Below are positions 3,090 through 52,200 of a stretch of DNA of 64,000 nt, in pieces (within the stretch, counting starts at the first letter, position 1; every line of letters starts with the position of its first letter). The stretch comes from Nymphaea colorata. Its lineage: Eukaryota; Streptophyta; Magnoliopsida; Nymphaeales; Nymphaeaceae. The notes under the pieces were generated by a model. That model saw nothing but the letters and a program-made list of their open reading frames with translations, had not been told where the DNA came from and ran no database searches. The position numbers were made by a program, and so were the translations under genes. Location of the stretch: the NCBI RefSeq assembly GCF_008831285.2, contig NC_045148.1:9987001-10051000 (forward strand), given 5' to 3'.

Positions 3090-3790
3090 GTAAGCTTTGG
3101 GTACTATATCGCCATGGAATGATTAGAGTTTCTAAATATGAAGGGTGTAGGTAAGCCAAAAGCCAATGAAAGAAGAGCATTTGGGTAGTCCCCTCTTATT
3201 TGCCATGGGATTTTGGAGATCTACCATGCCTATAATGGAAGGAGTACTTGCGGATCATTTACCGTGGCACATGCACGATATGCAGGCAGAGACGAGCAGT
3301 ATATAAATGTATATATAATGTATATAACCAATCTTCTTTTACAATGCCTTGATCTTTGAACTTCACAAGCTTCCTTAGTGTTCTTTGGTGCAAGATGGTT
3401 CTCATTTTTCGATTGGCAAAAAGGATTTTCGAGTCTGTAAATCCTTTCCTAACTGTGCAAACCAAAAAAAAAGAAAACCTACTTCGCTTTTTATATATTT
3501 TGTTCCATGGCTTAGATCAAGATAGGATGATTCCCTTTATGTTTTACAGAGGTGTTTGTCTTGATTTCTTTCAACTTTTGGCTTTAAATTTTTTAATTAC
3601 TTTGTGGTCTACTTTGATCGGTGATGGTTTCTCAGCGTATATAGAGGCGAAAATTTTGATATATTCTGATCCCATTTCCTTGTCATCTTCATACTGTTGC
3701 CTGCCATAATATCGTAGACATGGTTCTGTAAGCCTGTTGGATGCTGGCCAAGAACTAAAGAGTACTAATCATGGAGACCGTGGGGGTTGT

Positions 3791-3920
3791 ATCATCTTCT
3801 AGATTTTGCTCAAGACCGTACGGCCTCTTCATTCTTCTGCAAAACGCAGATCGCTCATGGTGGCGTTTCTGGATGTGTGGATGCGCAGGCTGGACAGTCT
3901 TGAGCAAAATTCTAGAAGAG
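3791..3920 (+). ncRNA. MIR5179-like: miR5179-like microRNA precursor hairpin
   Basis: Positions 3795-3826 pair with 3887-3919 to make a stem of about 31 base pairs with one single-base bulge (3911), two mismatches and one G-U pair, closed by a loop of about 60 bases. The 5' arm at 3804-3824 starts TTTTGCTCAAGACCG. As I recall it, these 15 bases equal the 5' part of miR5179 from rice, Brachypodium and orchids. The last six bases differ at four positions. The predicted star strand with 2-base 3' overhangs is 3891-3911. In orchids miR5179 is reported to target DEF/AP3-type class B MADS-box mRNAs, and a role in floral organ identity would be inference here. Small ORFs over this site are shadows of the hairpin. 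The fold is seen directly; the family name rests on memory of the mature sequence. Confidence 0.8.
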
Positions 3921-5856
3921 CTGACCATCTACTTGTTAATGGCTGCCGCTGCAGACGCTTGATGGATCTCGTCCGCAACCATCACTGGAATCTCCCATTA
4001 TTCATGGTAATCAGCACTTATCTTCGGCTCATTAATTTGTCTTCACTGTGAAAATTTGAGTTTTTTGTTGTTGGTAGTGCCTGTAATGTAGAATTCAGAA
4101 TCCTGCTTCCTACAGATCCCATTAATTTCAATATGGCGTTAGCACCTAAAAATGGAGATGTACCAGTTGCATATGCCCGCTTGCAGAGAGAGAGAGAGAG
4201 AGAGAGGTTGAAGTCTGGATATTATGACTTCTGCAGAATCATGTCTGTCATCAACATATATAATCACAGATGTTGTAGATAAACCAAACCACAATCTTAC
4301 TTCAGGGGTGGGAAAAACGGCGAGACAAGTCGATCATTTATTTAAGAAGTATGTTTGGCAGCACAGACGTTAGTGTCTGAACCGCTTTCCTTTATCACTA
4401 AAACAGCGAACGAACCATAAGAATTTATGTATGTCATAATATTTTACACGCATCAGATCTTTCGTGTTTATATATATCTGTTCATATTTTGTAAGTGAAA
4501 GTTGAGATAAAGATATAGCGCGAGCTGTTGAATCACTATTAATTGCAGACATTGCAGCTCTTTTTCCTTGCATCTTTCTTGCTTTTCTACTGTATGACTG
4601 TTTAGGAAAGGTGTATAAAGCTCGTAATAAAAATGTATGAATAGGCGTTTTGTGAACTCTTGTTATATGCTAATGTAATTTGATTGCCATAGTTGCCTCT
4701 CAGAAAAATCATATTCTCACTTCGCTTGGAACTTTGGCATTTTTAGTGCGGTGAAATATATATTTCTCAAATTCTCTGTGTTAATTTGATCTTCAACAGC
4801 TTTTTATGATCATATGCAAAAGTATGTTCTCTATTATCTTTTTAAGAAAAACAAAATTAGAAAATATTAAGAATTTGCATTAGAGAAGGAGATTCTGAAA
4901 TCTGATCACCACCAGCATCATTATTATCATGTGTGTTAGAAAAGCCAAAGCCGTCATCATTATTAGCATTAGCAAATGAGCAACATCATGACCCACCACC
5001 ATCAACATCACATCATATCAACACGACCATGATCATCTATTTGTCTGAGGACACCACACCAACGTTGTCAGGCTTCTCAGGATTCATCGCGTGCCTTGGT
5101 GATATTGCTAGCTCTTTCTTCTGCAGCCATGTGAGCCATCAAATTTTCAGAGATTATATTCAGGTGCTGGACAAAGTTTTGTCTGGTTCCTGATTCTTGG
5201 GTACCTCATGAAGCAACGTATTAAATGTTGATCTTTTGGTCAAGGATGATATTCTCTTGCTTCTTTTTTTCCATTTTCTAAATTGAGCTAATAGTCGAGC
5301 AGAAACAGTATTTCGATTACTCGGTTATGGTAGTTCGATTTAATTCTCTAAGCAGCTGCTTAAAGATACTTTATGCAAGGTTTATGGTGGTTTAGATATA
5401 GCCAGCCTGATTAAATGTTTTCTCAGCTTTGGTCATGGACATGATCGACCAGATTATTTCTGCATTTTTAATCGAGGCCAAACAGTGGGTTTAGGGCTCA
5501 AAGAATTCAATACCAGTACATCTTTTTGTATAACATGATGTCCATTTAAACATGATTAAATCCCAAAAAAAGAGAACTTTAACATTTGATGTCATGGTTT
5601 TCTGGACGAACCTGCAAATATTCAGAGTACGTTGTTCACTAGGAATTCTCAGAAATCCGCTTGGTTAAAATGAGCTTGGTTACTCTAATCATTCGATGAA
5701 TGATGCTTAAGAAGGGTATATATTTTATTACAGGCAATTTAGGGTTCGGCAAATCTCTATTCTTTGATGCCACAGAAAGAGAGAGAGAGTTTTTTTTTCG
5801 AGATTCATCCGGACCTCCAGCCAATGTTTGACCAAATCATCTGTGTCTTCTTATCA

Positions 5857-5962
5857 TTGACAAGATAACACTTACATTTTCTATTGAAAATTCTAAGACA
5901 AGTTCATCCTTGACAAGATAACACTTACATTTTCTATTGAAAGTTCTAAGACAAGTTCATCC
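5857..5962. repeat. Two-copy tandem repeat, 53-bp unit
   Basis: Two adjacent copies (5857-5909 and 5910-5962) are nearly identical and begin TTGACAAGATAACACTTACA. This is a recent local duplication in spacer DNA. Confidence 0.9.
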
Positions 5963-6449: not shown

Positions 6450-6786
6450 TTAAGGAGAACGAGGGGATTCAAATGTCAGTACAATTAATGGTAGGATATA
6501 TTGGACGATTTACCTATAGTTTGCTGAAGATTATTCTGAGAGAAACCCCTATATTTGGTCAAGTAAAAGAGATGTCCCCACTTAAGCATGCACCTCATAA
6601 AAAGCTGCTAACGTGACAATACAAACCACAGTTGGTTGTTATATAAATGGTTCCTACCCTCTAAATGGGCCCTTACTCTTTATCTTTCCCCTGTCGCGGG
6701 AGGGCTAAAACTGGTTTTTTCTGCTCTTTCTCTGGCGTTCTCATGAACCGCATTTCTTTTTTTCTCTCCCAGTAGCTAGTTTGTTT

Positions 6787-6893
6787 GGTTAGTTGTTTTA
6801 ACTGGACCCTTTGTCCAATTTGTTTTACTACTTGCTCTAATTGAACCCTTTTTGTCCAATTTGTTTTACCACTTGCTCTAATTGAACCCTTTT
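6787..6893. repeat. Short tandem repeat
   Basis: A unit of about 46 bp containing TTTGTTTTACNACTTGCTCT and the following AATTGAACCC words occurs twice, with a degraded third fragment upstream. Confidence 0.6.

Positions 6894-7373: not shown

Positions 7374-7377
<4 letters not shown>

Positions 7378-7406
<29 letters not shown>
7378..7406. repeat. (CT)n microsatellite
   Basis: A pure CT dinucleotide run lies downstream of the 3' end of the minus-strand C2-domain gene. Confidence 0.9.
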
Positions 7407-7775: not shown

Positions 7776-10721
7776 CTAACATGAATTCCTGGAAATTGAA
7801 GCATTCCTGCGGAGTCCGCTAGACTCTTCACAAGAACCTACTGACACCCGAGAATTCACAACATGCTCAGGAAGGAGCGGGGACTGTACTGGTGAACCAT
7901 CATGGCCTCTGCTGTTAAAAGGGAAGCACTCCTGCAAAACAGGATCGACAGGAAGGTCCTCTGCTTTCGGGCTATCTCCTTCTAGGCCTGTATTAGATTC
8001 TTCATCAGACAGATTGGACTTATCAGAACCCTCCGGATTCGTGCTCGACCTTGATTTGGAAGATATCTTCTTGCTCAGTCTGTGTTTCAATTGATGTGCA
8101 GATTTCCCGGCGTGCTTGATGATGCTTTTGGCCACGTTCTTTGCATTCTTAGGAGAGCTATCAGCCTCACATTTCTGCGGGGTAGAACCCTCTTTACCTG
8201 TTTTATTTCCTGCCAGCTGTTCTTTGAAGTCTTCAGGAACATCATCCAGAACAAGCACGACGCCGTTGCCCTTTTCACCTTCGGCCTTCAGGTTGGGGCG
8301 TGGAGTTGACAGATCTTCTTTGCTATTCTTCGTATCATCTGTTTTTCTATCCCTAGAGAAAAGTGAAACCATCTTCCTCTTGATTGAATCAATGGGCTTT
8401 TGATTCTGGTTTAGTATCTCTTCTTCCTCGCTACTGTTGTCATTGCGAACTGAACCCGTACAGGCTGGGCTATCTGGAGTGCCTGGACCTTCGCGAGGGA
8501 TCTCAGTTTCCGGGTTTCTACTTCTCCCCTTTCTTGGCTCCCAAGTAGTAGAGACATCACTTCCTGGTTGATGAACCCAGATGCATGAATCACTTTGGCC
8601 TTCTACATTGATTTGCTCAAATTTATCTGCCACTCTACTAAGATATTCTTTAGTCTCAGTTTTACCGGGTTCTTGACGAGCCATGTCTTTATCCACTGGG
8701 ACCCCCTCCCCACTTTGACTCCATGCTTGGTCATTTGCATCTACTTCCTCCTGCTAAAAGGTTTTACGGAGTTAATGCCTGTTGAAGGTTGAATTCCACA
8801 GAAGGTAAGTAGGTAAAGAAAAGGCACCTTCACAGTTGGATCTACTTCAGCTACAGTTATTGCCATATGCAGCCTGCCCATCTTGATGTTTTTCAGAGAC
8901 AGCCATTTGTCGTGCCTCTGTCCACCCCGGAGATCATTGACAATTATAGAGCAGTTGCTGAAGATAAACATACAAAGGGCATACTGCTTCAGAACCATAC
9001 AAAGAAATGCAAGATCATGTGCAGTTCATGGCGAAAAAAAAATTAGGCACATGCATCAGCAAGCACTGATTATCTAAATCCAGTTTCAACACTCCCTAAA
9101 ATCAACCTGTAAAACAGATATGAACAGAGACTAATATAACTAAGACAGAGATCTACTACACATTATCAGAATGAAACACCGAAGAATACAAACCCAAGAG
9201 TGTCATCCAAAAACAGGTCTTTATCCCGGATTTCAAGCTCAAGGACATTAGGAGACTCCCACGTACAAATTGGGATCTTGAACTCTTCCTGCCATTTTGG
9301 AGCTAATGTTTTCCTCTGAATTTTTGTCTTGAACCTGTATGGGCCCATGTGGCCTTTCACATATGGATCGGCTAACCCTGTGAAAAGAAATGCATACTTT
9401 TAATTTTGGAACCAACAGGAGACACGATATAAAGATTTCGAGTACATCTATCTGTGCCGGCATACCATTCGGATCAGATGGCTTCATATTATCTGCTTCT
9501 ATTATTTCAACTTTTGCATAAGCAATAGGCTTTCTTTCATCCACAGAGAACCAACCACCTGTATATATAGCATGGATTAGACTAAGTACCTAATAAGAAA
9601 GGCTGCTTCTTTCATCCACTCCATTAACAATGTTCTGCCAGCTCCTCATCAGTCTTTTATATGATGAGACAAAGAAAGAGGAGTTTGTGCACTCCTTACC
9701 ATCATAAAGAATCAAGACAAGATTATTCTCAGGCGTACCTTCTGGTGTTGATGCACTTTCTGTTGATCCGACAAGTTTCTCCAAGTCAACGACAAGCATA
9801 TTGGGCTGCATAGAAGATAACCATCAGATAACACCCGACTATTTCATTTATAGAACTGAAATCCCTCCCTCGCCTTTAAGGACTATAAGTAAGCTTCAAA
9901 GCAATAACATAATCTAATAAGATGACAGGATACTGTACTACTACCAACCTCCACCAGTGTCTCCTCAAAGGCCATAGCGAGGACTTTATCCTGCCAAAAT
10001 GTATCAGATTGGAAAAGAAAGGCATGAGATCCACGTGGCAAAATCGATCATGCTCAATAATATATGCCTAAGATGTAAAAGAAGCATACTAGCCATCCAG
10101 CAATCCCTGGAACTTCTGTAACGTCAAGGCCATGACTAAAAATAGGTTTGACAATCATCTGAAAGTATGGGGGTTGCACAAAGCATAGCCGTATACGCTG
10201 AAGGAAAGGCCAATTCTGCAGAAATTTTACACCAACCAAAACCTAACAGGAGAAGGAAACTGCTTAAGATTTCACTGTTCTTGCAGTGACAAGGAAAGAA
10301 AATGCAGAGAAAAATAGTGACCAAATCGTATTGTCAAGGACAAGGAAACGACTCCTCAAATGCTTACAGGAAAGTAGTTAATAAATCCTGAAACGTGGTG
10401 CTAAAACAACAATATCAACACAGAGAAAAAAGGAAGATAGAAACCCCCATGCAATATAGAAGATCAGATGTTGATGAATAAATTGGAATTCTTTCATAAC
10501 TAACAAGATAGAATGTTTGCCAAAAGAACAAAGAAGCACAGACTCTCTGATAGTACTTTATGGATGTCCAGTATGCATCTAGAATATCAGAAATGAGCAT
10601 TATATATTATTGAAATGCAGGTCCATAATAACTTGGTATGTATAGAACTAGAAATAACATGCCTTAAAGTTAATACTTAGATGCTTCGTCTGTGCAATGT
10701 AATTCACACAATATGAACACG

Positions 10722-10769
<48 letters not shown>

Positions 10770-12390
10770 GGAGAGAGAGAGACCTTTGCTTCAATATGCA
10801 TGCCAGTCAAATGCAATTTTGTCCACATGCCAAATCCTAATCTTTTCCTTAACTGCACTGCTAGTATTGCACTCATATCATCTGCAGACAGGAAATTTAA
10901 CCCTAGCTCCAAAACCTGTATAATCATTGCCATGTTAAGCTGGAGAGCTTGAATATGCTCCTTTGGGTATGAGAATGAAATCATCCACATCATACCAGAT
11001 GGTCGTCGTCAGCTGACTGTCCAACAACCCTCATTTCAGTGATCAGAGGAGGGTTCCTTCCCAGGTACAATTCTTGCACCACCACCTTCTTCTGCATATA
11101 TCATCCGAATTACCACTAACTCTTGAACAAAAAATGGTAAAGCATGAATTCCAGAAAAAACAAAAAAAACAAAAAGGAAGCCATGACAGCTTGTCAACAA
11201 AGACACACATAAAAAACGTCAAAAAAACGCATATTATACACGTTATTTTTGCATTTTTTTGTACTTTTTATGTTTTTTATTTTTTTATAATTTTCAGGAT
11301 TTATTAAATGTTCAAAATGTTTTAAAAATTTGCCGAGATTTTCCTGTTTTATGCCCGAGATATACAACTTTGCCGTATTATACCCAAGAAATTTCTCGCT
11401 GTATAATACCCATACACGTTTTTTGTGACAATCGTTTCAATAGAAGAATTGCCATTGAAATAACAAACTGGTGAGATGATGAAAAAAGTGCAATACAATG
11501 AGTGGATGCATACTGCTGTCCACGGTTTATACTTCTCCAGGAACCAGGGCACAATAGGCAAGAGTATTTTCTGCGAAGCAATCTGCTCCATGCAGATAGG
11601 CCATACTTTCACGAGCAAATGGTTTAGCCACCGTACTGTTTCTGAATCAGAGAGAATCTGAAACAACAAAAAGGAAAATTACTTCCCTGTTATACATACA
11701 GTTTCATTCCACCATCCATGTTCAGACGGTTATTAGGAGCTATGGAATGAATTTAAAATGAAAAGACAACAAAAAAATGGCAGGTTCATGTTGTGACCAG
11801 TTACCCTTTTCTGATATGCCTGCTTCTTCTCTTCATGGTGTAACCTCTTCCTTAATCTCAAAATATAACGTTCATTAACCTATTAAGGTGGAGAACAAAT
11901 AGAAGAAAAAGAAAAGCTTCATCATCATGTTCGCAGTATGGAAAGGGAATTGCAGTTCAATTAGCAAAAGCAGGACAAAAATTGTTAAATCTATAAAATA
12001 TGGCATTAGAATGTTTGTAAATAACAGAATGCCCACTACAGTGAACCTCTGGGTTTCAGAGAAACCCAGAAAACTTTTTGACTAGTGTGAAAGTTCCAAG
12101 ACTGCTAGATCAGATTCATCGAACTTGCCAATAAACTGAGCAGTACTGAATACTCCCACCCGCTGGTATTTAAAAAAAAAAAAAAAAACCAGAAAAAAAG
12201 TTGGCAGTAAAGTAGGTAACAAGTTCCTTATTTGGTCAAGAAATGAGTGAAATGATTTGTTTACCAGATAGAGGTAAATAAAACTTATAAAGTAAACAAC
12301 TGGGTGGCAGCAATTGAATGAAGAAGATATCCAAAGCACAGCCAGGACCAAGCCAAAGTGATAAACTATTGAAAGTTGAGCTATGTCCAT
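7776..12390 (-). CDS. NTMC2T6: N-terminal-TM, SMP and C2 domain protein (NTMC2 type 6)
   Basis: The protein is a putative ER-anchored lipid-transfer and membrane-tethering protein of the plant synaptotagmin-like group, closest to Arabidopsis At1g53590. Coding exons in transcript order are 12390-12265, 11879-11805, 11657-11514, 11091-10996, 10915-10784, 10242-10090, 9990-9949, 9805-9739, 9558-9466, 9377-9194, 8957-8828 and 8753-7776. All are GT-AG and in frame, giving 739 residues (the family has about 750). Residues 10-45 hold two hydrophobic stretches. Residues 68-256 form the SMP lipid-binding domain (WPICMEQIASQK, PWFLEKYKPWTA, LSADDMSAILAV, GFGMWTKLHLTGMH). Residues 288-414 form a C2 domain that keeps the calcium-loop aspartates (SDPNGLADPY, RDKDLFLDD). 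The last exon encodes a polar, Ser/Glu/Lys-rich tail with the family motif WEPRKGRSR. The start lies 27 bases after a good acceptor (12417), implying a leader intron. Membrane localisation is seen as hydrophobicity; the contact-site role is inference. Confidence 0.95.
10724..10782. repeat. (GA)n/(CT)n microsatellite at a splice donor
   Basis: In the gene's orientation, intron 5 begins GTCTCTCTCTC. The pyrimidine microsatellite therefore starts at the donor dinucleotide itself and continues for about 60 bases with minor interruptions. Confidence 0.9.
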
Positions 12391-23121: not shown

Positions 23122-24288
23122 GTGCGCCGGCCAGCTTTTGTCGCTTTAACATCAGATTAGACGGGTTAATTCGGCAGTGGCCACTATGAAGAGCAATGAC
23201 TTCATTAACTAGAAAGAAAAAAAATCTCGTTCAGGATCAGAAGCACAGTTGCCATGTGTTTAATGCTCGATACTGCTAAATTATATATATATATATATAT
23301 ATTAACGATGACAGAAACAATTTATATCATGATGATCAAATGCTTGAACTATGGCAATCGTATTAGAAAGAAGATGAATAAAAATGCTTAACGATGACAA
23401 ACAATTCATGATCATGATCATCAACTGGTTGAACTACGTATATCTATAGAACGGAGTACTGAGTTGTGTTCCTGTTCCGATGCATCAGCTGATAAGACAT
23501 CAAATCGGACCAAGACCTCAACATGATGAGCCATCATTTGGAAATGCTGGTAAACGACGTCGATGGGACCTTTGAAATACACGCAAGGAATGGGTCAATA
23601 TCGTCTGCTGCGCTATGTTTCGCCTGTGTTCATGCATGTCAGAATCATGAGCGATGAATGTACATAATACAGGAGCCGACGTTGATGATGATGCTGATTA
23701 TGTACATGAACATGAGGATGATTTTGCATGCATAGTCATGACTGCTGAGCGTTAAAACTCATCTTGCTTCTCAAAAAGGAAGAAAGAAAGCCAAAGTTAT
23801 TATTGTTAAATTGGTTAAGCTCGCAAAATTATATATCTAGCAGTCACCTTGATTTGAATCTTCCACCTGCGCAGCCAATCTTTGACTTTACACAGTTGTT
23901 TTGTTCCATAGTGGACTGTGAGCGTCGATTACGGAGCATTAGGAAGACAATACTAACAAGCAAATGGCAGGGTTGAAGCCTCATCTTGGCTTTTCCACTT
24001 GAGAGCCTTCACATTTTCCTACCTAAATAAAAAATCAGTGGGCTATTGTTGTCTTAGTTATATAAGAGTTTATTATTAAGAGGTCGTCTCACAGTTAGAA
24101 CACTTTGTAAGGTTTTACGAATCTAATTCAAAGATTGAAACAGATACAATGAACACTAAAACTAGACGTCCATAAATTTATCTTGATCTTTAGGACATAT
24201 TCTTATAACACTCACAAAATGATTCACTTGTCAAAAGATCCATAAACGTTTAATGTTCATTGGGTATTATATTGATCCCTAGTATTTC

Positions 24289-24362
<74 letters not shown>

Positions 24363-26000
24363 GGTCAAATAATTGGTGGGACTTTTCTAAACACAAGAGT
24401 CCCAGCATGGGTAGCCGCTTCATATTTCCCTCTATATGAAAGTGGAAGACAGGAAACCTCCTTAGATAGCAAAAAAGCAATATTCCAACATGATATATAT
24501 ATACATATGAAATCGTACTTTGCCGATAACATGTAGAAGCGGCATACGAACAAGTGGCAAGGCTCCTACTATTTCTCTTCAAGATAAACCTCTTTTCACC
24601 AAGCTCAAAGAGGGATAATATTACCATTTCTTCAATTGGGTATCTTGTTAAAATTTGAGAGACAGCCTGATTAACCTACTAATTAATAGCCGTCACTCAC
24701 CCTAGATACAATGATGTATTCGACTAGTCCAGTCTTGGCGTTAGGACCGAGCCTTCATGGCTTGACTTGATCAACTAAAAGTTAAACAACCCAGCCTGGG
24801 CTAGCAATCCAGATAATGGAGCCCGATTAAGTCCAATTAAGGTAAACTTGTTAGATTTTAGAAAGGGATGACATAATGACAACAAAACGTATTAACATGG
24901 CATGCTTAATGACAAACATGAAGTATTATTTCCTAATTCGTAAATAGTTGTTTCCTAGACTTTTTGAAAATGAAATTTGTTAAAGTTAAAGGACCCAAAT
25001 TAATCTGAATCAAAAGCTCAACATCAATCAACCAGGTTGGTTGGGGCACAACGACGGATTGGCTCACTAACGTTCATTGGACCACCAGCTTGAACACGGG
25101 GTCAAGCTAGCTTCGTACACACCAAGGTCGGTCCAGGTTTAGACAGGACTAGGCGGTCCAGTCCTGGTTCAAACCCAGGCCATGTGCAGCCTTATCTGCG
25201 CCTATCTATTCGACAATTAGTTAGGCTCTTATATTGGATACAACTGATCATTATGGACCTTTTAAATGTGAATCTTAACTAATTGAGTAAGAGTCTCCGA
25301 GGAGATTAGCACAACTACCTGAAGTGGAGCTTATAGATTACTGGTTTCCATTTCAAGTATTAGGGGTGTCAACTTCTTGTATTGTAAAAAGGCTCTCACA
25401 ATGCGCCAAATTGAAGTGCAGCAGAACAACACTCCAAGGCACCCAAAGTAGGTTTTACATTTTATGAAACAAAGGGTTGAGTTGAAGCTTCCGCTCTCTA
25501 CCAAGTGGTGGGTCTCTCCGGCTCACAGAACTAGTTGTCTAAGAAAGCTTAGTATCATTATCAACCCTATAATCATGCCAATTAGCGTGCAATTGTGTCC
25601 ACAAAGTCCCCATCATCCTCTTGGACCACTCACTTTCTAGGTAACTTTTCACCCAACTTTGTGAAAGCTCTAATTAATCAACATTATGCAGGTATGCTAT
25701 CTTCCAATGGCTAGTTAGCCACCCTCTTCTTTTCTTCTCCACCATTCCTTTTAGGCATATCTCACCTCTTGCATCAGGTGATTGCCTAATCTTTTCCGTT
25801 TTAAGTCAATACCTGAGCTACTTGTTGGCTAGGGTGGGCCGCTGCCCACACCAACCCATTAAAATCGCATTACAATGTCTCAAAATGACACTGTTATGGT
25901 TTAAAATTTATATGCAGTACCCACAGCAAAAGTTGTGTTACCAATGGAAGTTTCTGGACACTAAAAAATCCTCGCTCCGCCATTAGTTTAAGTGAACTAA
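23122..26000. other. Gene-free stretch with repeats
   Basis: It holds (AT)n runs near 23283 and 24291-24359. The part at 24.7-25.2 kb has GGTC/GACC-rich phrases similar in style to 41.7-41.8 kb, possibly transposon debris. No recognisable coding exon was found. Confidence 0.45.
24291..24359. repeat. (AT)n microsatellite
   Basis: A pure AT run of nearly 70 bases in spacer DNA. Confidence 0.95.
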
Positions 26001-34000: not shown

Positions 34001-34300
34001 TCGTGCTAGTTAATGTGATTTTAAACTGCTCCTTTATACCCAAAAAAAAAAAAAAAAATGGTGCATCGCGAGAATTTTACCCCAGGTTTTCTTTTACACA
34101 TAAAATTTTACTATGTATTTTTCATTGAATTAAAAAAAAATTACTATGTATTTTTCATGGAATTAAAAAAAAAGTCGCGTCAGACTTTTTCCCACGGTGT
34201 AATTTTTGATGGCATGAAAAGTTTGAGCACTTAACCGTAATTAACTGAAATGGGAGGGCAAAAAATTGTAAAATCCTTGATGGGACCCACCCACTCCACT
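31060..34300. other. Unit-A-specific region upstream of the first ETHE1 gene
   Basis: No recognisable gene was found. The region has no counterpart in unit B. It holds an (AT)n run near 32265, a degraded hAT-like fragment starting near 31155, a Tourist-like patch at about 32970-33180, a 42-bp tandem duplication at about 33700-33780 and a 34-bp one at about 34108-34172. Confidence 0.45.
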
Positions 34301-34301
34301 T

Positions 34302-34323
34302 GGCCCATTCGGTTTTTATATAA
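34302..34323 (+). promoter_or_regulatory. Core promoter of ETHE1 copy A
   Basis: A TATATAA box (34317-34323) sits 92 bases before the start codon. A GGCCCA word (34302-34307, the complement of a site II TGGGCC element, common in plant mitochondrial and ribosomal gene promoters) lies just upstream. Transcription would start near 34350, which excludes the in-frame upstream Met at 34250. Confidence 0.6.
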
Positions 34324-34414
34324 GCAAAGTCCCTCCTCCTTCGGCTTCGGGGTCGATCCTTCAAGAGAGCCAACACGGACAGCCTCCCTCCCTCCCCTGG
34401 TCGCGGGGTCAGCC

Positions 34415-37400
34415 ATGATCCGATTCCGGTCTTTGCTTTCTTCCTCCTCTTCCCTCGTCTCCCGCATTGCCTTTCCTGCATCTTCTTCCTCTCGTCTTAC
34501 TTTCCCTGCCTGTGGCCTCGCCGCTTGCCCTAATCCCTCTCAAGGAAGCAGCTTCCTGGCGAGGGCAATGTCTGCAGTAGCGAGATCTCCGGGAGGTTCC
34601 AATCTTCTCCTCAAGCAGCTCTTCGAGAGCAAGTCCTGTACCTACACTTACTTGCTCGCCGACGTCGCTCATCCCGAGAAGCCTGCTGTGGTGAGTGGCT
34701 GCTCTTGTTCTTGCTCTTCTCCACTGGTTGATGCTTTTACGTTCTCGTGTTGATTCCGATCCGATTCTCGCTTTTTCTTGTTCGTTTGGATTTTCATGTT
34801 ATTTTCGAGTTTATGGGGCTTGCAAGGCCTTTTATCAATGTTCGTGGATTGTTGATTCCGTCTTGAAGTTGGTGTTTTCGTCGTTGGTAAGTTTTTGTTG
34901 CTTCTTTTGAATTATGGTGCTTACGAGGTCCCTTTTTTCTGTTTTTTTTTAAATGATTTTTTTTTTTGCTTTCAACACATTTTTGTTAATTAGCTTGATC
35001 ATGTCGATTCAAAGCGCATGATTCTTCTTCTTCTTCTTTTGAATTAATTATTTTTTGTTTTTGTTGAAAATTTTGATTTTCTTTATGAATGAATTTTTGT
35101 GGCAAGCCTCTCTCTCTCTCTCTCTCTCTCTGTTTTTCTTGTTCCTCTTTTGAATTAATTGTTTGTGTCTTTGTTGAAAAATTTTAGTTTGTTTTTATGA
35201 ATTATGCGTGGAGCGTTTTTTGTTCTTATTTACTCCATAATTAGTACGTTGTTTCTGAATTTATTTCTTTATCCACAGCGTATTAAGTTAATTTATTTTA
35301 CTTTTCATATTTTCTGACCGTAGGAAGAACTTTCGACAGTGGGGTAATGCTTTGAGAGTTTTTGCTAATTTTTTAATTCTATATTAATGCCAAATTAGCC
35401 CAAAAGGTTATTTCCTGCTTCCTTAGTTTCCTGAGCTGCGTCCTGTTGTGTAGGTAACACTGGGTAATTTTTTTTTGCACAACAAGGATTATCAAGGCCT
35501 TTTAAATAACTATAACATCCTTTTCCGTTTCCCCTGAAAACTTTTTCAGACGTAGGTCTTGGTTGTTTGCTTATATTGTTCAGAACTGTTAGTTATTTAT
35601 TCATTATTTCCATATAGCTTATCATTTAAGTTCTACTTTGCATTCCCTTATCTCTGAACCTGTGTTTCCTACAATTTTATTTGCATAGTTGATGCTTTTC
35701 CGTTTTTGTCTTTGTTGATGATGCTGCTTTCTTGGTAACAATCATTTGCCTGAAACGTGCTAACCTTAAATGACAAGTTCTTTGTGCCCTGCCTGCTTGT
35801 CTAGTTGATCGATCCAGTTGACCAGACAGTCGACAGAGACCTTAGTCTTATCAACGAATTAGGCTTAAAGTTGATTTATGCTATGAATACCCATTGCCAT
35901 GCTGACCATATCACTGGAACCGGTTTGCTAAAGGTATGCGACTGCCCTGTGTTCTTCCTTGCTAACTTTGCTTGAATTGTCAACTGCAGAGTGTTGAATT
36001 AGTCTTTCTATATTCCTCCTTGGGAAACATAACTTTTTCATGTGACCCAAATACTTTCCTGCAGAAAAAGATGCCTGAGGTGAAGTCAATTATCTCGAAA
36101 GATAGCCAAGCCAAGGCAGATATTTTGATCAATGCTGGTGATAAAATACAGTTTGGGAATTTGTTTCTGGAGGTAATGAGTAGGTATTTACTAATTCTAT
36201 CCAGATGGCTGACTTAATTGATCTATGCAGAGCCTAACAGAAAAATAGTGACAACTTCTTTATTTACATGCCTTTGGTTCTTTGCTGTCAATGAAAAGAT
36301 CCTCTTGTGATTCACTTTTAGTTGCACAGAAAACCAAGGTATTGAACTGAAGACAATGATTGTTCTGTTAGGCCACAACAATCTTAGACTGATTTTTTTT
36401 TTCTTTGGGTTTATATTTTCCTTCATAATTTTGTAAGTATTTCCATGTGATGGGCCCATAACCACAACTACTTCCTAATAAATCCTTCTTTTCATGTGTT
36501 ATACATGTGGCCTATTTCAGTCTTCCTCTTGATTCTAAATGTAGTACTAGAAAGTAATCTTCCACGCCTCGTCGCCTCCTGAGTTTTCTCTGCATACTGA
36601 CATTTTTCTTGTTATAAGCCTCAGTTGCCTATATCCAAAGAAAAGGTTCATGTCCTGGTTTTGTCTCCCACTTCGTGATAAGGCTCAATATCTAGTTGAA
36701 ATATATCTACTGCCCATGCTACAGTAGTGGACTTCTGTCTAGTCTTGAATCTCTTGGTCTAGTCCTTTACATAAGCTCTCATATATGTAAGTTCTGTGGT
36801 ATACATCAACTTATATTTGTTATGCAGGCTCGTGCAACTCCAGGGCATACTGCTGGCTGTGTCACATTTGTGACAGGTGATGGGCCCAATCACCCTAACC
36901 CTAGGATGGCTTTTACAGGTGATACTCTTCTAATACGAGGCTGTGGAAGGACAGACTTCCAGGTTTGTCTATATGTTTCTTTTTTTTGCTACTACAATAA
37001 TTAATAATATGCGTTAAGACGTGAAATGATGTTCATTTTTGGCGATGGTTAGAAAGCTTAAGTTCTAGAAATGATTGGCAATATCAAAATCAATACAATG
37101 GACTTCCCAGTGCTCTTGGATTTTCTCTTCTGGAACATGAACATTTTCTCTTAAAGTTTTTCTGTTGCAAAATGTCTTCTGTGCTAAGTTTCAAATTTTG
37201 ATGGGGGAAACCTTCTTTACATTTGCTTTCTCTTGGCATATCCAATGCCAACTAAGGGTCTGTTTCACTACCATATGATAGAAGAGAATAAAGAGATTGG
37301 GTATTCTAACTCGGTAACACAAATAATTCAAAAAGAAGTTAAGGACTCCTATTGCGATGCTGAATATGACATTGAAAGGCTGATTCATAATTTTGTTGTG

Positions 37401-40553: not shown

Positions 40554-42395
40554 CAAACCTCCGATTATGAAATAGCATCATCCAGCAGCGGGGAATGTCG
40601 TCCATTCATCAATCTGGTGTTTGGTTTCTAGCTATTCTGTTTCCATGTGAAGCATTTGGCTTGCCCACCACCCCTTATGCAGCTTTTTCCGGTTTGATTA
40701 TTGTCTAAAAATTTATGAAAGATCTTTGTGTTGGTCTGTATATATATTGACCTTATCATCTGGGTTAATGAAGCCAGCCCCGACCTCTTCATTCTTGAGT
40801 TTACCGTGATCAGGGGATAGGCGGGTAGGTTTTCTTTTAGCATCATAAACAGAGGGGGCTGGAAGGTGTCCGCTCTGCTGGGAGGTACAAGCATGGGGAG
40901 AAAGCTTCACGACAATTATCGTCGTCTTCTGGGATGTGTACGTCATGATATCATCAATGAAGACTGCAACTTTAAGAGTGAATGTTTTCTCAAAGCATTG
41001 CCTGTTTGGATAATAATTTGTTCTGCATAAATTTAAAAAATATGTATGTTTTAATTTTTTTAATGTTAGAAATCTTACAAAAGGATGACCAGTCAGCAGC
41101 CTCCCTTCTTTCTCGCCTTCTTTCCCTGTGGTATAGATCCCTACCGCTGTGTTTGAGTCTCGTTCTAAATGTTTGATTCATGTCAAAATTGAGATGGTCA
41201 GAACCCAGGTATGATGAAAGTCATTTCTAAAAGAGTAAAAAAACTCATGTTTACCATATCAAAATTACTTTTTGTTGTTTAAACAAAAACATAGTTTTAA
41301 AAGTGAAAGCATGGATTTGTCATATAAAAAGCTGATTAAAAAACCTAATTTTCACATAGCTATGTTTTTACACAACTTCATTTTTTGAGGGTTCATCAAC
41401 ATACAAAGTGAGCTTTTTGTGCACAGGCCTTGTGACGCTGCCATAACTATATGGCAGGCAGCGATCAAAGGTTTTTAGATTCGATAAAACACAAGCCAAA
41501 TAATTATATCAGTCCGTATATGCATTCGTTGTAACCAATATACTCTTTTGAGTGGCAAAAAAGTATTTTCGTTGGTCAGTCCGACAGGGCCTAATTCGAC
41601 TCGATATATTTTTTAATATTATTTTTATTTTAATAATAACGTATATTTTATTATTAAAATATATTTTACATTAAAAATTTATTTTATATTTATAAAAATA
41701 TTTTTTATTTTAACCGGACCAACTTGGGTGTAGGCCCGGACTTGGGTTTCAGGTGTCGGGTCGGACCGAACCCACTCTTATTGGGTCGGGCCAGCTTGAT
41801 GCCCAGGCCTACCCATCATCGTTGTTATTTCATACATGTCGTCGTTATTTCATACCACCTCTTTATCATTATCTCAAACGTTATGGGTATGAGATAACAT
41901 GAGCTTGAGATAATGATAGTGGTATGAGATAATGGTTATAATGATATTATGATAATGGAGATAGCAAAATAGTATGAGATAACGACATGGTTAAAAATGT
42001 TCATTGTGCATGTGCAATGTTAAGGTATTAAAGTAAATATGTTTGGCAGTAAGGTCTACCTTATGCTTAAGGCCACCTTTGATGGTTTTGGATCTTAGAT
42101 TCAAGACTGTTTTAAAACTTGTGTCAACTAAGATTCTTGGGTTTAAACAAACAAGAGATCTCAATAGCATGAATCTTGAATCTATGTTATATATCAGTGT
42201 CAAACATACCACTAAATTTTTGAAAATCTTGAGATATTTATGAGAAAATTAAATAAATTGAAACAAATGGGAAAAAATTCTCGAGATTTGAAAAATCTCA
42301 TCAAAAATAAAAATGTCATTCATTTTTCATAATTTTTTTCGAGAACAATATTTGTGACAGTGCTATGTACAAAAAACCATAGATTTAAAGTCATA
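40554..42395. other. 3' flank of ETHE1 copy A
   Basis: The 3' UTR and downstream flank are collinear with 55297-56955. An extra block at about 41.4-42.04 kb contains GGGTCGG-rich phrases (41.7-41.82 kb) and repeated ATGAGATAATG words, probably transposon debris. No gene was found. Confidence 0.5.
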
Positions 42396-46989: not shown

Positions 46990-49100
46990 CTTTATATCCC
47001 AACAAGTTGGCACGTGATGATGCCGGTTGTGAACAGGATGATGAGGCCGGACGACAATGAATGGACGCGTCGGCTTTTGTTTTTTTAATTAAAGATGTGG
47101 TGGCCAACTTGTATTTGAATTTTGCCTCCTCCTCCCATCAAACACATCCAAATTCCATTGCTGTTAGGCCCCACCGCCCAACAATGAAGCACTCCATTCC
47201 GCTTATCACCTATGTATGTAAAAAGTAGCGACCTAAAATTCTTACTTATTATATATATATATATAACTATAACTATAACGATTAGGCTGCTGACAAGGCG
47301 AAAGCTTAGGAGCCCGAAGAAACTCGAAACCCGTAATTTTATCAAACAAAACTTGTTTTAGGAACACGATCTTGATCGCACCCCAAACGGAGCCCAAGAA
47401 AAATAAAAAACCGGCCCTTATAATTTACAAACTGGCAGGCAACCCGAAGAAATTGGCATCGCCCAGGGGGCCCCGCAAGCCCCTGTTGGTGGGTCCCACT
47501 GTCTCATCCAATGACGTATCGTCTTATCTGAATGGCGCGCAGCACGAAAGGAGTGGCCTCGCTCACCGGGTCGGGTCCATAGAAAGAGGTCCAAGTAAAC
47601 AGTAGCGTCGGTTTCTATGTAGGTTTGGATTCATAAAATGGGACTGAACATAGTTTAATTAGACAGGTCCGACCCATAATAGGCATCGGTTCCGGTCCTG
47701 GATCCGTATCCGCTTCGGCGAGGACAAGAATTTCATAAGGCAGTCCCGGCACCTGGATGATCACTACGCCAACAACTACGTGCAGCCTAGCTGGCCTCGT
47801 GCAACTTTGTCCATCATGAATAAAAACTTATTATTTAAAGATGCATTATAAGATGAGCTCATAGTCAAACACGAGCATCTCATCTTGGTAGTTATATAGT
47901 AGCAACCTCTTAAGTATATTACAATTATATATTTATGTAAATATATAATTGTAGTATACTTAATATATATAAAAATATATATAATCCAGTATCGGAATTT
48001 TCCGTCGGTCCGGGATCACGTGACTGTGTTGCACGCGACCCGGCCGGGGTCCGGCGGCGACGAATCTGTGGGCGCGCGAAGGAGAGCAGGCGCGTGGGTT
48101 CATCACGCATCCTCTCTTTGTCTTCGCCGAATTTGATAAGTACGCGCCCACGAATGGAGTGACGTCATCAAGCGTTTTTTGGGTGGTGGGGGTGAAAATA
48201 GACCTGGTGATTTCAAGCTCCACTTTTTTGGAGTAGTCAAATAAGTGCGTGCGCTTCAAGGCAGCAAGCGAAGCGCATCAACGCCGCAGTTTTATTTACC
48301 TAATGCTTGCGCTGCGCCTCACTGCATGCATGGTGCCCAAGACGGCTGGAGTGGTCTTGTTTTCCTCTTTAAACCGCAAATGCGTGGGGGAAATGCAACT
48401 TCGATCCTAACCTGTTAGTTGAGAAAAACATCTTCGTTGGGAGCATTTTTCATCTTTGTTGGAGCATTTTCATTTTTATTTTTTTTATGTTCTTGTTGTA
48501 GATGCTCAAAGAATAGAACATCCTTCCAATTGTTTGTTGGAATGTCTACAAGAGCGTTCAGTCAAAGACAATATGTGATGGTAAGAGCGAAAGGCGAGAG
48601 GGGGCCTGCAGCCCTCCTCTTGGCGCAGTCAAGCACTTTGAACTGTTTGAATCACAAGCAAAATTTATGAAAATGAGCCGCCTGTTGAGATTATGGGAGA
48701 CCCACTGCCTTTCCACAATTGGGGATGGCCGTCCGTCGAGCTGCGCAGTGCGCACCTCACCAGTCAGGCAGTCACCTACAAAAAAAGACGCGCAGGTCTT
48801 GTATGAACATGTTGTTAAAGAAATCAAAGCCATTAAGAAACAAGCTAGCAGATTTAAGTGATTAATAAAGAGTTTTTTGTGGGGCTGTATTCACCGGATC
48901 AGAAGATAGAAGGTGGACGGGCTCCATATCGTGATCATCAATTGCTCTACCTATCAAAACTTGTCGGTTTCTGCGAAAGAGAAAAGTGGCAACCTGCAAA
49001 ACCATTCCCCTTGCAACTTCTTTACTGTAACAGTCTCGATGGATGTCCTTATGGTTTGCTGTAACAGCCGTGTTTTTACTCACATACTTGTTATTTTAAT
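46990..49100. other. Unit-B-specific region upstream of the second ETHE1 gene
   Basis: It has no counterpart in unit A. It holds a GC-rich patch (about 47990-48270) with an ATCACGTGAC G-box palindrome at 48015-48024, and a block of medium-length frames on both strands (48419-49064) with no recognised domain. It may be foreign DNA that replaced the original promoter, or a separate small transcript. Confidence 0.4.
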
Positions 49101-49123
49101 AGTTGCTACGCTTTGCCTCGCTT

Positions 49124-49129
49124 CACGTG
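49124..49129 (+). promoter_or_regulatory. G-box (CACGTG) upstream of ETHE1 copy B
   Basis: A palindromic CACGTG core lies 92 bases before the start codon. No TATA box like that of copy A is present. Similarity to copy A resumes only at about 49165, inside the 5' leader. bZIP or bHLH binding is inference. Confidence 0.4.
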
Positions 49130-49220
49130 GTTGGCGCTTCCCTTGGCGTCATCGCATTTAAACGTTGCTTCCGAGAGAGCCAGCATAGACAGACTCCCTC
49201 GCCTGGTCCCGGCGTCAGCC

Positions 49221-52200
49221 ATGCTCCGATTCCGATCTCTTCTTTCTTCCTCCTCCTCCCTTGTCTCCCGCATTGCCTCTCTTGCATCTTCTTCCTCTAG
49301 TCTTACTTTGCCTGCCTATGGCCGGGCCGCTTGCTCTAATCCCTCTCAAGGCAGCAGTTTCCTGGCGAGGGGGATGTCTGCAGTAGCGAGCGCTCCGGGA
49401 GGTTCCAATCTTCTCCTCAGGCAGCTCTTCGAGGACGAGTCCTATACCTACACCTACTTGCTCGCCGACGTCGCTCACCCCGAGAAGCCCGCCGTGGTGG
49501 GTAGCTGCTTTTCTTCTTATTGTCTCCTCTGCTCTATTCCTTTTCGTTTTCAAGTTGATCCCGGTCCGTAGATTCGCGTTTCCCCTTGTTCATTTGGATT
49601 TGCATGATTTTTTCGAGTTTATGGGACTTGGAAGGCCGTTTATGTTCGTGGGTTGTTGATTCCAGGTTGAAGCTGGTGTTTTTGTCGTTGTTCTGTTTGA
49701 TTTTGCATTGGAAGAACCGTTAAAGTTTTTTTTACTTCTTTCGAACTATCGTGCTTAGGACGCGTCTTGTTTTTGCTTTTTTTTTTTTTTGAAACGGCTT
49801 TTTATTTTCAACACATTTTAGTTAATTAGTTTGATCATGTCAATGCAGAGCACATGATTTTTGCTTTTCTTTTTGAAACGGCTTTTTATTTTCAACACAT
49901 TTTAGTTAATTAGTTTGATCATGTCGATGCAAAGCACATGATTCTTCCGCTTCTTCTTCTTCTCTTGAATTAATTGTTTATGTTTTTGTTGAAAGTTTTG
50001 ATTTTTTCTGTGAATGAAATTTCCATTAATTTTTTGTAGCTTAAGCTCTCTGTCTCTGTCTCTCTCTTTCTCTCTGTTCTTCTTCTTCTTTCGCATTAAT
50101 TGTTTATGTCATTGTTAAAAAATTTTATTTTGTTTTTATGAATGATGCGTGGAGCCTTTTTTCTTCTTATTTGCGCCATAATTAGTACGCTTGTTTATAA
50201 ATTTATTTCTTTATCTACCGAGCGGATTAAGTTAATTTTATTTTATTTTTCATATTTCCTGACCATGGGAGGAACTTTCGACAGTGGGGTGATGTTTGAG
50301 AGTTTTTGATATTTTTTTTTTATTAATGTCAAATTAGCCAAAAAATTGATTTCCTGTTTCCTTATTTTCCTGACCGTCTGTAAGTAACACTGGGTAATTT
50401 GTTTTGCCCAACAAGGATTATCAAGATCTTTAAATAACTATGCCATCCTTTTGGTTTTCCCTGAAAATTTTTTCAGACGTAGATCTTGGTTGTTTGCTCA
50501 TATTGTTCAGGCCTGTTAGTTATTTATTCTTTATTTCCATATAGCTTATCATTTAAATTCTAATTTGTTCCCCCAGCTCTGAACTTGTGCTTCCCACAAT
50601 TTTATCTGCATGTTTGATGCTTTTCTGTTTTTGTCTTGTTGATGATACTGCTTTCTGGGTAACAATAATTTGCCTGAAATGTGCTAAGCTTACATGTGAC
50701 AATTGCTCTGTGCCTGCCTAAATCATTTTCTTGTCTAGTTGATCGATCCAGTTGACCGGGCGGTGGACAGAGACCTTAACCTTATCGAGGAATTAGGCTT
50801 AAAGTTGATTTATGCCATGAATACCCATTGCCATGCTGACCATATCACTGGAACTGGCTTGCTAAAGGTATGTGACTGCCCTGTTGTTCTTTCTTGCTAG
50901 ATTTGCTTGAATTGTGAACTGCACTGTGTTGGATTAGTCTTTTTGTATTCCTCCTTGAGAAGCATAACTTTTTTATGTGACCTGAATGCTTTCATGCAGA
51001 AAAAGATGCCTGAGGTGAAGTCAATTATCTCGAAAGATAGCAAGGCCAAGGCAGATATTTTGATCAATGCTGGTGACAAAATACACTTTGGGAATTTGTT
51101 TCTGGAGGTAATGAACTATGTAGAATCGTAGATGGCTGAAATTAGTCGATCTTTGGTTTTTTGCAATCAATGAAAAGATCCCCTTGTGATTCACTGATGG
51201 ATTTGCATGGAAAATCAAGGTATTATTGAACTGAAGCCAATGGATTTTTTCTGTGAGGTTACAACGACCTTAGACTGAAATTTTTTTCTTTGGGTTTATA
51301 TTTTCCTGCATAATTTTGTAATTATTTTAATGTGATGGTGCCATAACCACAAGTACTTCCTCATAAATCATCTTTTCATGTGTTATACATGTGGCATATT
51401 TCAGTCTTCCTCTTCATTCTAAATGTAGTATTAGAAAGTAATGTTCCATGCCTCTGGTGTTTCCTCTGCATACTTGGGATCTTTCTTGTTATAAACCTTG
51501 GAGCCTGAGAGCAGGTTGCCTATATCCAAAGAAAAGGTTCGTGTCCTGCTTTTGTCTCCCTCCTTTGTGATAAGGCTCACATATCTAGTTGAAATCATAT
51601 TGGCTGTGCATACTACGGTAGTGGACTCTCTTGTCTTGAATCTCTTGACCTAGTGCTTTACATAAGCTCTCATGTATGTAAGTTATGTGTTATACATCCA
51701 CTTATATTTGTCATGCAGGCTCGTGCAACTCCAGGGCATACTGTTGGCTGTATCACATATGTGACAGGCGATGGGCCCAATCAGCCTAACCCTAGGATGG
51801 CTTTTACAGGTGATTCCCTTCTAATACGAGGCTGTGGAAGAACAGATTTCCAGGTTTGTTACTGTACATTTCAATTTTTTTTTTTCACTAGTACAATAGT
51901 TAATAAAATGCCTTAGAATGTGAAATAATGTTCATTCTGGCCTTGGTCAGAAAGCTCAAGTTCTAGAGATGGTTGGCAAGCTCAAAATCAATATAATGGA
52001 CCTTCCAGAACTCTTGGATTTTCTCTTCTGGAACATAAGGACTCCTGGGACAGTTTGTCATAAAGCTTTTCTGTTGCAAAATGCTTTCTTCACTAATTTT
52101 CAAATTTTTCGGGTGGAAAACTTCACATTTGCTTTCTCGTGGCATATCAAATGCCACCCAACGGCCTGTCTCACTACCATATGATAGAAGTGAATAAGAA

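Follow-up and report, generated by a model that had tools for sequence, protein, structure and literature searches.

The miR5179 family and its cleavage of DEF transcripts are already known from orchids (PMC4022656; PMC4546042). The 21-mer TTTTGCTCAAGACCGCGCAAC has been published identically for Orchis italica (PMC4022656) and Phalaenopsis (PMC3920020), and with the same canonical tail for oil palm (PMC8912876), asparagus (PMC4828810), a barley study (PMC4570814) and rice (PMC4422267). Cleavage of DEF has been demonstrated in Orchis, where the figure of the target covers positions 330-410 (PMC4022656), and in Cymbidium, where the cleaved region of CenDEF3 is given as 360 to 380 (PMC4546042). 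EgDEF1 of oil palm has been named a putative target, and as late as 2022 it was considered that the miR5179-DEF module might be confined to monocots (PMC8912876). For Camellia japonica, cja-miR5179 is cited as having the B-class gene DEF as its target (Ma et al., 2023, cited in PMC13027160), which resembles the AP3 target predicted below. The degradome target of lily miR5179 is an AGL15-type gene, which counts against AP3 as a universal target of the family. In all, miR5179 has been reported in orchids, asparagus, oil palm, lily and grasses, named for wintersweet and cited for Camellia; with a water lily now a probable addition, the label 'lineage-restricted' that a preliminary description of our locus gave to the family looks doubtful.

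The locus lies in a 64,000-nt stretch of DNA of Nymphaea colorata (C11:9987001-10051000), referred to here as the window, whose numbering is used throughout. We consider, with a probability of roughly 0.86, that it is a MIR5179 gene, apparently the sole one in the N. colorata genome, and that its miRNA would cleave AP3/DEF mRNA. The plus strand of the hairpin would be transcribed, DCL1 would release from the fold-back a 21-nt duplex with 2-nt overhangs, and the 5'-arm strand, which begins with U, would be loaded into AGO1. The mRNA of the AP3/DEF class-B MADS gene would then be cleaved opposite miRNA positions 10-11, at a K-box site (CDS 360-380). Cleavage is a prediction for Nymphaea, in contrast to Orchis and Cymbidium.

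The fold-back occupies 3791-3922 on the plus strand. When folded, it reaches -58.6 kcal/mol with a z-score of -6.59, and none of 200 shuffled sequences was equally stable. Arm 3795-3826 pairs with 3887-3919, interrupted by the mismatches C3817.A3896 and A3820.G3893, the wobble G3822-U3891 and a bulge at U3910. Base by base, this is the single bulge, two mismatches and one wobble that the preliminary description had read from the letters, and the folding bears out the fold-back that it had proposed. The lower stem is formed by 3795-3803 and 3911-3919, and base 3911 doubles as the final base of the predicted miRNA star. Plant miRNA precursors are characterised by few mismatches in the duplex, a duplex without a large loop and a length below 300 nt; the present hairpin has two mismatched duplex positions and a precursor of ~130 nt.

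Fold strength alone is not distinctive in the window; the case depends on sequence identity, register and target. Among 120 z-scored candidates, those at 24.3 kb (a TA microsatellite), 41.8 kb and ~47.9 kb reached -6.8 to -7.1, against -6.30 for the plus strand of the hairpin in the same run. A ranking by fold strength, tried as an argument for uniqueness, was dropped, as these other fold-backs score stronger z. No Rfam family matched the window at or above gathering thresholds; the best sub-threshold match near the hairpin was MIR3440 (26.6 of 105 bits, E 0.00085). A scan of the window for bacterial promoters and terminators was uninformative.

The predicted mature miRNA, UUUUGCUCAAGACCGUACGGC, lies at 3804-3824 on the 5' arm of this stable fold-back, given plus-strand transcription, which we infer; the Phalaenopsis guide, named 5p, likewise derives from the 5' arm (PMC3920020). 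Positions 3804-3824 read TTTTGCTCAAGACCGTACGGC. The first 15 bases are those of published miR5179, and the departures from it are at 16, 17, 19 and 20. Compared with UUUUGCUCAAGACCGCGCAAC, 17 of 21 bases are identical, 15 of them contiguous from the 5' end. Bases 1-15 and the length of 21 nt are shared with orchid miR5179 (Orchis italica, Phalaenopsis PA-miR1 and Cymbidium cen-miR5179), and bases 1-15 also with the miRNA of oil palm, asparagus, the barley study and rice, all of which carry the canonical tail instead. Because of its four tail changes (C16U, G17A, A19G and A20G, all transitions) the window 21-mer is a variant of miR5179. The family comparison was made by full-text literature search with the 15-mer TTTTGCTCAAGACCG or its RNA form. 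The window sequence TTGCTCAAGACCGT, or its RNA form, was not found in the article texts searched (supplements lay outside the search), and no paper was found that treats miR5179 and Nymphaea together, most subscription papers and all supplements being outside that search.

The predicted star lies at 3891-3911 on the 3' arm, and the duplex that it forms with the guide has 2-nt 3' overhangs. It shares 14 of 21 bases with the Phalaenopsis star and differs at the other seven; opposite guide bases 1-15, which are unchanged, four of the 15 star bases are different. Relative to the Phalaenopsis duplex, pair 16 is U-A in place of C-G, with a change on each side, pair 19 has gone from A-U to G-U, pair 7 has been gained, and pairs 14 and 17 are broken in the window hairpin. 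The 21-mer is thus as the preliminary description had it, with the first 15 bases of miR5179 and four changes among the last six, and the miR5179-type identity that it suggested for the precursor is supported by the 15-base identity, the duplex register and the fold. On these grounds we regard the hairpin as a likely member of the miR5179 family of plant microRNA genes.

The whole genome (407,766,735 bases in 783 contigs) was searched for further copies and for targets. An exact match to the 15-mer occurs in three places, namely the hairpin, contig C1 and contig C9. The C9 occurrence falls inside a K-box match (C9:23491682-23491780), and the gene in question combines a MADS domain (PF00319, 8.1e-25) with this K-box exon (4.8e-8). 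Its product ends in HPNLHERGYGCHDLSLG followed by a stop, an ending which we take to resemble the paleoAP3 motif. The MADS exon has 79 matches in the genome, the next best of which are 77% and 76% identical and adjoin K-box exons of a different kind; the C9 gene is therefore the single AP3-type gene found.

The site in this gene, GCTGTGCGGTCTTGAGCAAAA, lies in the K-box exon at CDS 360-380, numbered with exon borders set manually from AG/GT and reading frame, and this is also the position of the AP3/DEF site in Cymbidium (PMC4546042). N. colorata thus carries, in its own genome, a site in an AP3/DEF-type gene, the predicted target, to which the window 21-mer is complementary without mismatch, positions 16 and 19 forming G:U pairs (score 1.0; -36.2 kcal/mol out of a maximum of -38.9). 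The target prediction on the plant's own AP3/DEF genes that the preliminary description had proposed accordingly yields a candidate site.

With up to three mismatches to the perfect target allowed, the genome holds only the hairpin (0), the AP3 gene (2) and the 3' arm of the hairpin (3). That a reversed control pattern produced chance matches as well (3 in the reverse direction, 0 in the forward one) counts against the reading preferred here. A wobble-tolerant scan with up to one mismatch returned eight places vs 17 for the reversed control, so that only AP3 and the hairpin stand out. One other wobble-tolerant place without mismatch lies on contig C10, where inspection of 501 bases by eye revealed no obvious gene. 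At the other K-box loci (22 of 23) the best site on the coding strand, over ~3.1 kb, was no better than 8.0.

The 191-base region 3760-3950 has one match in the genome, itself, and a MITE or other dispersed repeat was rejected on this ground. No second MIR5179 copy was found by this search or by a screen of the places matching a 13-mer. Of 20 exact 13-mer places, only the window (both strands counted) and one place on C1 passed the pairing screen, and the C1 place, when folded, shows no stem at the 21-mer. With one mismatch allowed there are 824 places (428 + 396), of which the 20 exact ones and 10 others, less three, were screened, so that a diverged copy is excluded only to the reach of the 191-base search.

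These results also bear on whether the resemblance to miR5179 might be due to chance, the hairpin being an unrelated fold-back, whether a MITE or a new miRNA. The window does hold other fold-backs of similar or stronger z, and the exact 15-mer is present on C1 without a hairpin, some 0.8 chance occurrences being expected in the genome. However, the hairpin is single-copy and therefore belongs to no MITE family, the miR5179 match sits in the duplex register, and its reverse complement lies within the sole AP3-type gene found, at the published target position. Nor is the hairpin a recent copy of that gene: an origin by recent inverted duplication of AP3 was rejected, since the similarity of the arms to AP3 drops, outside this 21-base stretch, to 6-9 of 30 positions on each side. 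We regard a chance resemblance as very improbable.

The changed tail deserves separate consideration, as it was thought at the outset that it may alter the targets of the miRNA. On the AP3 site, canonical miR5179 would wobble at 17 and be mismatched at 20 (score 1.5; -33.5 kcal/mol), and the window tail therefore pairs slightly better than the canonical one, a small gain of 0.5 in score and 2.7 kcal/mol which indicates that AP3 is retained as a target. An altered target was rejected once the real AP3 site (1.0 vs 1.5 for the canonical miRNA) had replaced the canonical complement, which had served as a stand-in (2.5). In the canonical complement the two codons concerned are Leu TTG and Arg CGC; in the AP3 site they are Leu CTG and Cys TGC. 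With these Cys and Leu codons G17A and A20G re-establish Watson-Crick pairing, whereas C16U and A19G convert pairs to wobbles.

Of the 81 variants at positions 16, 17, 19 and 20, only the observed tail scores 1.0; six of the 1,215 variants of any four among the six tail bases do so. The fit is, however, far less striking when it is considered that all four changes are transitions (rough estimate 0.2). Transitions are the type that drift favours, and they would suit a relic, i.e. a MIR5179 locus that has fallen silent and is left with a drifting tail, as would the two duplex mismatches and the presence of four changes in a 21-mer that is constant across Orchis, asparagus, oil palm, Phalaenopsis, the barley study and rice. 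Against this, the stem is almost intact, no other copy was found for region 3760-3950 in the genome, the tail still pairs with AP3 without mismatch, and, transition bias notwithstanding, only one of the 81 variants does as well. A relic thus seems improbable, and a gene that would still act on AP3 is the reading preferred here.

The strand from which the miRNA would be made is a further point on which this reading could be mistaken. Because the stem is nearly symmetric, a feature that the preliminary description does not mention, the 21-mer of the minus strand is also miR5179-like: it reads TTTTGCTCAAGACTGTCCAGC and has four differences from miR5179 (at 14, 16, 17 and 20). The locus could therefore belong to the same family and be transcribed from the minus strand or from both, with UUUUGCUCAAGACUGUCCAGC as the working miRNA. 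This 21-mer is no more distant from miR5179 than that of the plus strand and scores 2.0 on AP3, which counts against the preferred reading, and its star is equally far from that of Phalaenopsis (7/21). The minus strand folds well too (-53.2 kcal/mol), with a z of -6.93 vs -6.30 for the plus strand in the 120-candidate run. TATA-like motifs, which are motif matches only, are present on either side of the hairpin: on the plus strand a weak one at 3638-3643, ~150 bases 5' of the hairpin, with others at 3300-3321 and 3492, and on the opposite strand at 4257 and 4467-4471. On the other hand, the contiguous identity with miR5179 is shorter on the minus strand (13 bases vs 15), and the plus-strand fold is 5.4 kcal/mol more stable, though its z is no better. 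Against the AP3 site, position 17 of the minus-strand 21-mer is mismatched and positions 14 and 16 form wobble pairs, for an energy of -30.3 kcal/mol as compared with -36.2 for the plus-strand 21-mer. The AP3 pairing favours the plus strand as the probable source of the guide, and a minus-strand miRNA, although the strongest of the alternatives, is unlikely.

The nearest recognised gene to the hairpin, ~3.9 kb away, lies on the minus strand at 7779-10242, with more exons upstream. It has C2 and SMP-like exons (PF00168, 8e-13, at 9169-9399; PF25669, 5.9e-6, below the curated cut-off, at 10057-10242) and is presumably of the NTMC2T6 type. PDB searches with two of its ORFs were uninformative, and several ORFs of the window had no Pfam match. 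Further along are two copies of ETHE1 (best PDB match 2gcu) and RPL18a. In Arabidopsis, NTMC2T6.1 (AT1G53590) and ETHE1 (AT1G53580) have consecutive locus numbers, and the neighbourhood therefore looks old. A conserved gene block near the hairpin had been claimed from the letters and is supported by this pair of genes; the accompanying idea, that a locus beside such a block would help to date its origin, is a fair one.

Several other features of the region may be recorded here. The two ETHE1 (persulfide dioxygenase) copies, at 34241-37004 and 49065-51916 on the plus strand, are ~15 kb apart with similar first exons, and represent a duplication, either tandem or segmental. The interval that separates the hairpin from the NTMC2T6-type gene contains a 53-nt tandem duplication (5853-5958, 96% alike) and one of ~41 nt (6771-6891, the last two copies 98% alike). 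Several long CT/GA microsatellites surround the miRNA locus or lie within the NTMC2T6-type gene (2923-2967, 4184-4206, 7377-7406 and 10723-10789), and a long self-folding TA microsatellite occupies 24277-24408. The fold-backs at about 41809-41952 and 47833-48048, with z about -6 to -7, are possibly MITEs. Elsewhere in the genome there are at least 182 terpene-synthase exon matches, a number of them with internal stops, with a cluster at C11:8.60-8.94 Mb, and of 46 exon matches to the SABATH domain 22 are on C11; both figures count exons rather than genes. The published account of the N. colorata genome lists 70 MADS-box genes, 13 SABATH genes (among them NC11G0120830) and more than 80 TPS-b genes (among them NC11G0123420), the prefix NC11G presumably denoting chromosome 11, although contig and chromosome numbering may differ.

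What appears to be new here, judged from sequence comparison, is a probable, apparently single-copy MIR5179 locus, found in a water lily, whose altered tail suits the AP3-type gene of the same genome. Nymphaea colorata belongs to Nymphaeales, an ANA-grade order, and if our reading is right the miR5179-AP3 pair was in place before water lilies diverged from most other flowering plants. It can be suggested, tentatively and at slightly less than even odds, that water lilies and mesangiosperms inherited the module from their common ancestor and that guide tail and AP3 site changed together in the Nymphaea lineage. This would be a case in which a miRNA and its target have apparently changed together, with A20G and G17A matching the Leu CTG and Cys TGC codons of AP3. 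The miR5179-AP3 flower-control pair would then be older than is often assumed, and control of class-B floral identity by miR5179 would be placed near the base of the living angiosperms.
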